Of a stretch of 64,000 bases of DNA, positions 27,524 to 28,573 are shown one piece after another. The DNA lies in assembly GCF_027532945.1 (NCBI RefSeq), contig NZ_JAPZTZ010000014.1:62001-126000 (forward strand), given 5' to 3'. The stretch comes from Phreatobacter sp. Lineage in GTDB: Bacteria; Pseudomonadota; Alphaproteobacteria; Rhizobiales; Phreatobacteraceae. The notes below the pieces were generated by a model. The model was not told the DNA's origin, made no database searches, and worked only from the letters and a program-made list of their open reading frames with translations. The number at the start of each line of letters is the position of its first letter. The stretch's first letter is position 1. The position numbers were made by a program, and so were the translations under genes.

Positions 27524-28051
27524 TCAGCGACGGGCGCCGAAGGCGTTGGCGAGCAGGTCGATCTGGCTCGAAATGGCATTGCTGGCAGCGGCCGGCGCGA
27601 TCTCGGCAAACAGCAGCTTGTCCATGTGGACGATGCGCTCCTGCAGGCGCATGGCCTTGCCGATGAGAGCGGAGAGCTGCTCGGGGAGCTCCTCCAGCGT
27701 CGCCTGCGGGGTCGGCGCACCGACCGAGGAGAGGCGCACCTTGGATTTCTCCTGCGCGGCCTGCTCCTGGGTGAGCTCGCCCTCGTTGACGGCACGCTGC
27801 AGCAGCAGCCAAGAGGCGAGCTGCATCAGGCGGGTGGTCAGGCGCATGCTCTCGGTGGCGTAGGCGAGAGCCGGCCCGCGGTCGAGGCTGCGGCTGTCGT
27901 TGCGGCCCGGGCCGTCGAGATAGGCGGCTGTCTCCTCGACCAGCGACATCCCCTCGCGGAACAGGTCCTTGAAGGCCTGGGAGCTGGCGAGCCGGGTCCC
28001 GAAGGCCACGGCGGTCTCGGCGACGGGCGAAACGCTCTCTTGCGACATCAC
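27524..28051 (-). CDS. rcdA: RcdA (DUF1465), CtrA proteolysis adaptor
   Basis: DUF1465-type sequence (FKDLFREGMSLVEETAAYLDGPGR, ESMRLTTRLMQLASWLLLQRAV). Confidence 0.85.
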   Translation of the reverse strand: MMSQESVSPVAETAVAFGTRLASSQAFKDLFREGMSLVEETAAYLDGPGRNDSRSLDRGPALAYATESMRLTTRLMQLASWLLLQRAVNEGELTQEQAAQEKSKVRLSSVGAPTPQATLEELPEQLSALIGKAMRLQERIVHMDKLLFAEIAPAAASNAISSQIDLLANAFGARR

Positions 28052-28111: not shown

Positions 28112-28126
28112 TTAAGGAAAGGTAAA
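28112..28126. promoter_or_regulatory. CtrA-like box upstream of rcdA
   Basis: TTAA-GGAAAGG-TAAA: TTAA-N7-TTAA with one mismatch, 61 bp upstream of the rcdA start. Confidence 0.5.
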
Positions 28127-28321: not shown

Positions 28322-28348
28322 AAAAAAAGGCCGCCCGAAGGCGGCCTT
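28322..28348 (-). terminator. Strong intrinsic terminator (minus strand)
   Basis: AAGGCCGCC-TTCG-GGCGGCCTTTTTTT on the minus strand. Confidence 0.85.
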
Positions 28349-28410
28349 GAAGTGAAATACAGGGAGGCGTCAAACAGAGTGGACAGGAGCCACTCGCGTC
28401 CAGCGAACTG
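28322..28410 (-). ncRNA. Candidate trans-acting sRNA (possible alpha-r8/MmgR-like); 5' end not determined
   Basis: Minus strand: GAGTGG-CTCCTGT-CCACTC hairpin, single-stranded GACGCCTCCCTGTATTTCACTTC, then intrinsic terminator GGCCGCC-TTCG-GGCGGCCTTTTTTT. No minus-strand gene upstream that would use this terminator. Confidence 0.5.
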
Positions 28411-28573
28411 AACGATTTGTTTGATAAACGGGAAAGGTTAACCAGCCGTTAGCCGTTACCGGTGCAGCCGGCGATTCTTGCGCTGTGTCGGCCTTGACGG
28501 TGGCATGAAAATGCTGTGCGACATGGGTCCGCAACGGCGGGCGCGGGCCCGCGGCTCTCCAGGACCTGCCGAC

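Follow-up and report, generated by a model that had tools for sequence, protein, structure and literature searches.

Organization of the locus

The stretch of DNA analysed here (the window; 64,000 nt of Phreatobacter sp. contig NZ_JAPZTZ010000014.1, positions 62,001 to 126,000) carries on its minus strand a copy of BjrC1505, a known but functionally unexplained small RNA (sRNA) family, between rcdA and a dihydropyrimidinase-like gene on the plus strand. The predicted promoter of this sRNA carries a box for the cell-cycle regulator CtrA. Judged from the sequence, the locus probably represents an uncommon regulatory arrangement, in which a conserved, CtrA-controlled sRNA lies beside rcdA, a gene of CtrA proteolysis.

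In the 5'->3' direction of the minus strand, the order of the elements was a CtrA-like box, a -10-like element, hairpin 1, hairpin 2, an open linker and a terminator. The CtrA box (CTAA-N7-TTAA in the minus reading; 28438..28452), which was kept across relatives, occupied the -35 position of the predicted sRNA promoter. About 11-12 nt past the box followed the element TTTATCAAAC (28419..28428; family consensus TTTCC-N4-TATNAC), which fell in conserved alignment columns and is the putative -10. The sRNA is predicted to comprise about 93 nt (28322..28414), with its 5' end at 28414 +/- 3. Hairpin 1, CGTTCAG-TTCG-CTGGACG, extended from 28397 to 28414. Hairpin 2, GAGTGG-CTCCTGT-CCACTC (28377..28395), exposed the anti-Shine-Dalgarno (anti-SD) motif CUCCU in its loop. 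The open linker TGTTTGACGCCTCCCTGTATTTCACTTCAA (28347..28376), containing the anti-SD motif CCUCCCUG, was unpaired in the computed fold, and the intrinsic terminator GGCCGCC-TTCG-GGCGGCC-T7 (28322..28346) was recovered both in the fold and in a terminator scan. It was the only terminator in the 2 kb scanned, where the chance expectation of such scans is about 0.9. The computed fold of the RNA from 28414 to 28321 consisted of the two hairpins, the open linker and the terminator, with -35.6 kcal/mol and z = -4.0, and none of 200 shuffles was equal.

A previous sequence-only reading of this DNA had proposed a minus-strand sRNA of 75-110 nt with anti-SD motifs, and the terminator, the hairpin, the CCTCCC linker and the CtrA-like box were all found at the positions it had given. 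The predicted length of about 93 nt lies inside its range. Its layout of hairpin, CCUCCC linker and terminator was correct but incomplete, as an additional 5' hairpin (28414-28397) is also part of the RNA. Its statement that no annotated transcript uses the terminator omitted rcdA, which lies downstream on the same strand.

The rcdA gene (27524..28051, minus strand) was assigned by its DUF1465 domain (PF07323, E 3.4e-56), and in relatives RcdA serves as an adaptor in CtrA proteolysis. It begins about 270 nt after the terminator on the same strand. A second CtrA-like box, TTTACCTTTCCTTAA (28112..28126, minus strand), about 76 nt before rcdA, was present in this genus and also at loci L025 and L026. 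The Pfam assignments of the neighbouring genes were DUF1465/RcdA, amidohydrolase, YebC and TauE. A seven-codon frame across hairpin 2 (GTG GCT CCT GTC CAC TCT GTT TGA) was considered and rejected as non-coding, as insertions and deletions break the frame in relatives that keep the hairpin.

Identification of the RNA as BjrC1505

The sRNA matched the Rfam family RF02356 (BjrC1505) with 92.2 bits (E 9e-18, cut-off 50) over model positions 1-140 and agreed in sequence, structure and terminator over the full model. This was the sole Rfam match at gathering score in the window, and the genome contains one copy. GcvB and other weak Rfam matches were discarded, all of their scores being below the cut-off. 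The first ~45 positions of the RF02356 model align to the CtrA box and the -10 and contain many non-standard pairs. Because these positions coincide with the box and the -10, the 140-nt model probably takes in promoter DNA at its start, while the RNA itself has about 93 nt.

The sequence-only reading had assigned the RNA to the alpha-r8 family (suhB/MmgR). This assignment has to be given up in favour of BjrC1505, since the suhB model RF00519 scored only 23.3 bits at the sRNA against a cut-off of 41. A bona fide suhB RNA with 68.4 bits was present elsewhere in the genome (G000:C6:231661-231737), and no CtrA box was found there. The BjrC1505 copy and this suhB RNA have a 3' module in common, CCTCCCT..ACTT followed by the terminator, so that "works like alpha-r8" is still a fair description.

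Expression of BjrC sRNAs has been detected in Bradyrhizobium (review PMC7143759). A function, CtrA control or a link to rcdA was not found for BjrC1505 in the literature searched, with the original 2012 description lying outside that search.

Conservation and covariation

Within the order, where the family is nearly universal, 246 of 298 genomes gave an RF02356 match; outside it, 36 of about 380 sampled genomes did. A separate covariance model, R1, was built from 49 promoter-less RNA sequences (alignment A2) including this locus, and it scored the sRNA at 85 bits, the sequence itself being in the training set. Outside the order R1 matched in 141 of 385 genomes at E <= 0.01; the weaker hits may stem from related anti-SD sRNAs or have arisen by chance.

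Across the three helices, 15 of 20 pairs varied on both sides, compared with 6.8 in shuffled alignments, and none of 500 shuffles, which do not take out kinship, matched this number. The true structure was 93% paired as opposed to 40-52% for slid structures, a comparison which keeps kinship but favours a structure derived from the same sequences. In hairpin 1 all six counted pairs varied on both sides among the 49 sequences, in hairpin 2 four of six, and the terminator helix also covaried. The terminator was strong throughout the aligned family members. Conservation within the family was highest in the linker, where TTTGACGCCTCCCTG was almost invariant in the alignments. Covariation and homologues in related genomes, whose absence the sequence-only reading had named as grounds for refutation, were thus both present, and the proposed sRNA is borne out by the family match, the covarying structure and the wide conservation.

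Some other copies and matches are worth recording. In some Rhizobiaceae genera (L248, L250, L251) strongly diverged copies scored 32-39 bits with R1 but were still followed by rcdA and had a CtrA box close by; such copies escape Rfam annotation at the cut-off. The sRNA occurred in tandem, with about 200 nt between copies, in a family that does not belong to the order (G671:C6:79513-79813, G505:C10:28-328). Five R1 matches in the class (L104, L107, L110, L113 and L117) had a hairpin around GTCTCCCAGAC, then GTGAAGCCTCCCTGT and a terminator, with no CtrA box, and are perhaps a related anti-SD family.

A CtrA box at the predicted sRNA promoter

A single CtrA-like box in 64 kb is meaningless on its own, because nine boxes with <=1 mismatch occurred in the window; it is the conservation that counts. 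Of 58 order-level loci, 56 had a TTAA-N7-TTAA box with <=1 mismatch, a perfect one in 21 cases, while five upstream control windows of equal size gave 1, 0, 0, 0 and 0. The box was mostly located at -76 to -86 from the linker; five loci scored at -95 to -99, most of these having a second, further box. The best test came from the class-level loci found with the promoter-less model, of which 24 of 26 carried the box against a background of 0.034 per scan, some of these loci having also contributed their RNA part alone to R1. All 77 named loci, mostly from Rhizobiaceae (Mesorhizobium, Brucella, Phyllobacterium, Hoeflea, Aminobacter and others), had a box. The predicted sRNA promoter thus carries a CtrA box almost without exception across the order and beyond, and the CtrA-like box noticed in the sequence-only reading has become the main result. 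The box lies at a near-fixed distance from the -10-like element, in keeping with a -35 location, for which reason the effect of CtrA would be activation. We take the sRNA to be a probable, so far overlooked component of the cell-cycle programme of Alphaproteobacteria.

Assignment of the box to the sRNA or to rcdA

The rcdA gene followed the sRNA closely on the same strand in all of 51 order-level loci, and within the fetched DNA in 71 of the 77 named loci. The distance from the linker to rcdA varied from about 160 to 510 nt. In nine class-level genomes from five families the sRNA occurred without rcdA in the stretch read (1.5-3.5 kb), and the box was kept in all nine. From one of these genomes rcdA was absent, and in the other eight it lay elsewhere (once 3.5 kb downstream). 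Of the eight displaced rcdA genes, only one had a box no more than 330 nt from the match. Wherever the two genes have come apart, it is the sRNA that retains the box; the conserved box is therefore part of the predicted sRNA promoter, and rcdA has a putative box of its own in some genera.

In earlier comparative and transcription start site work the CtrA motif at this locus was ascribed to rcdA (PMC2877005, PMC3616915). In S. meliloti CtrA was bound upstream of rcdA, yet rcdA was unchanged on CtrA depletion (PMC4433202). On balance we tend to count the sRNA among the ancient core members of the CtrA regulon, in Hyphomicrobiales as well as in several further alphaproteobacterial lineages, and take the CtrA site credited to rcdA to be mainly the promoter of the sRNA, although confidence in this broad statement is limited. 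If it is true, CtrA binding before rcdA without an effect on rcdA in S. meliloti would be explained.

Proposed mechanism and alternative explanations

The best explanation, which we hold to be probable though far from certain, is a trans-acting sRNA that is activated by CtrA from its own promoter and targets Shine-Dalgarno (SD) sequences. Phosphorylated CtrA would bind TTAA-N7-TTAA at -35 and recruit RNA polymerase to the TATNAC-like -10, and the RNA of about 93 nt would end at the intrinsic terminator ahead of rcdA. By its anatomy, with CCUCCCUG unpaired and a CUCCU loop, the RNA resembles an anti-SD trans-sRNA; the linker UGUUUGACGCCUCCCUGU and the loop of hairpin 2 could repress target mRNAs by pairing with their SD regions. 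In this way CtrA would also exert repression after transcription, in step with the cell cycle.

Several results weigh against this explanation. The copy of the box at this locus has one mismatch (CTAA), and a box was present within 130 nt of rcdA at 8 of 51 order loci, including this genus. A long conserved mRNA target was sought and rejected, as the 18-nt complement of the linker recurred consistently only at the sRNA itself. The leaders of rcdA and gcrA paired with the true linker about as well as with shuffled linkers, in a crude duplex measure without accessibility, and were dropped as targets. Matches of ribosome-binding sites to AACAGGGAGG were no commoner than to a permuted control (59 compared with 61). 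Transporter mRNAs were also rejected as a specific target class, because the genes matching the linker complement and those matching a permuted control with equal SD strength were both rich in transporters (N-termini judged by eye). This signal therefore comes with AGGGAGG ribosome sites as such. That the RNA is conserved although no single extended partner emerged would fit either numerous short SD pairings or an interaction with a protein.

Order-wide, genes with AGGGAGG ribosome sites appeared rich in substrate-binding proteins of ATP-binding cassette (ABC) and tripartite ATP-independent periplasmic (TRAP) transporters. Any sRNA with CCUCCCU will seem to target transporters, which calls for caution in target predictions.

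Among the alternatives, the sRNA could be real but repressed by CtrA, or the box could have another role, for example in a DNA-level control region, with the RNA being constitutive. The box alone gives no direction of regulation, and the microarray column of the table in PMC2573895 lists the probable homologue in S. meliloti under several conditions; against this, the box keeps a nearly constant distance to the conserved -10-like element, which fits activation at -35, and we regard this alternative as unlikely. A trifle less likely still is a cis-acting leader or attenuator of rcdA, in which transcription from the CtrA promoter would pass a conditional terminator into rcdA. The constant presence of rcdA downstream on the same strand within the order is the pattern expected of a leader, but the rule of always lying upstream of the same gene fails outside the order, where RNA and box persist with rcdA distant or absent. 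The variable spacing to rcdA and the consistently strong terminator also argue against a leader. So does the observation, in S. meliloti, of the probable homologue as a terminated transcript of about 80 nt (PMC2573895). Low-level read-through into rcdA is possible.

The other two alternatives are much weaker. A member of alpha-r8 acting on polyhydroxybutyrate (PHB) granules would share the layout and the 3' module, but given the subthreshold suhB score beside the BjrC1505 score and the separate suhB RNA without a CtrA box, it is very improbable; no link to PHB or phasin mRNAs turned up, and no search aimed at either was made. The least probable is that the DNA holds only the terminator of some longer antisense mRNA, or a structure due to chance; nothing speaks for this beyond the caution in the sequence-only reading, and the covariation and the order-wide conservation refute it.

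Comparison with known sRNAs

SmelC671/Sm84/ReC71 of Sinorhizobium and Rhizobium are similar in length (about 80-110 nt) and terminator. Sm84 has a listed length of 80 nt (PMC2573895), is arranged on one strand in the order SMc03988> sm84> SMc03989>, and has relatives in Bradyrhizobiaceae and Methylobacteriaceae (PMC2573895, PMC3927594). It is the probable S. meliloti homologue of BjrC1505 by layout, length and distribution rather than by sequence letters, with SMc03989 as the putative rcdA. In other Rhizobiaceae genera (g23, g122) the copies were diverged and low-scoring. The suhB/MmgR RNAs (alpha-r8, RF00519) resemble BjrC1505 in hairpin, CCUCCCU linker and terminator but differ in the points given above. 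AbcR1/2 likewise belongs to the anti-SD sRNAs of this order, and its targets are transporter mRNAs. It differs in that no Rfam family except RF02356 matched the window at gathering score.

CcnA of Caulobacter acts on the ctrA and gcrA mRNAs, but it has 182 nt and is located at the replication origin (PMC8959179), and so differs from BjrC1505 in location. The RF02356 search gave no match in 14 control genomes, including Caulobacter vibrioides. At most, CcnA is a functional parallel. EcpR1 is a conserved, cell-cycle-linked sRNA of the order (PMC4414408); identity with it was rejected, as neither its loop UCCGCCGCAUCU nor its neighbours divK-pleD (from PMC4414408) were found at the locus. Separately, the 97%-complete draft genome had no GcrA (PF07750) match while its congeners have one, which may be a gap.

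Implications

In symbionts as well as in pathogens among the Alphaproteobacteria, CtrA acts as the master regulator of the cell cycle. If the proposed explanation is true, a post-transcriptional arm conserved across nearly the whole order would add a missing layer to the CtrA circuit, and its sRNA would adjoin the gene for CtrA's own proteolysis adaptor. It would offer a simple explanation for the published puzzle of CtrA bound before an rcdA gene that is unaffected by depletion, and BjrC1505, an expressed but unexplained Rfam family, would gain a likely regulator.
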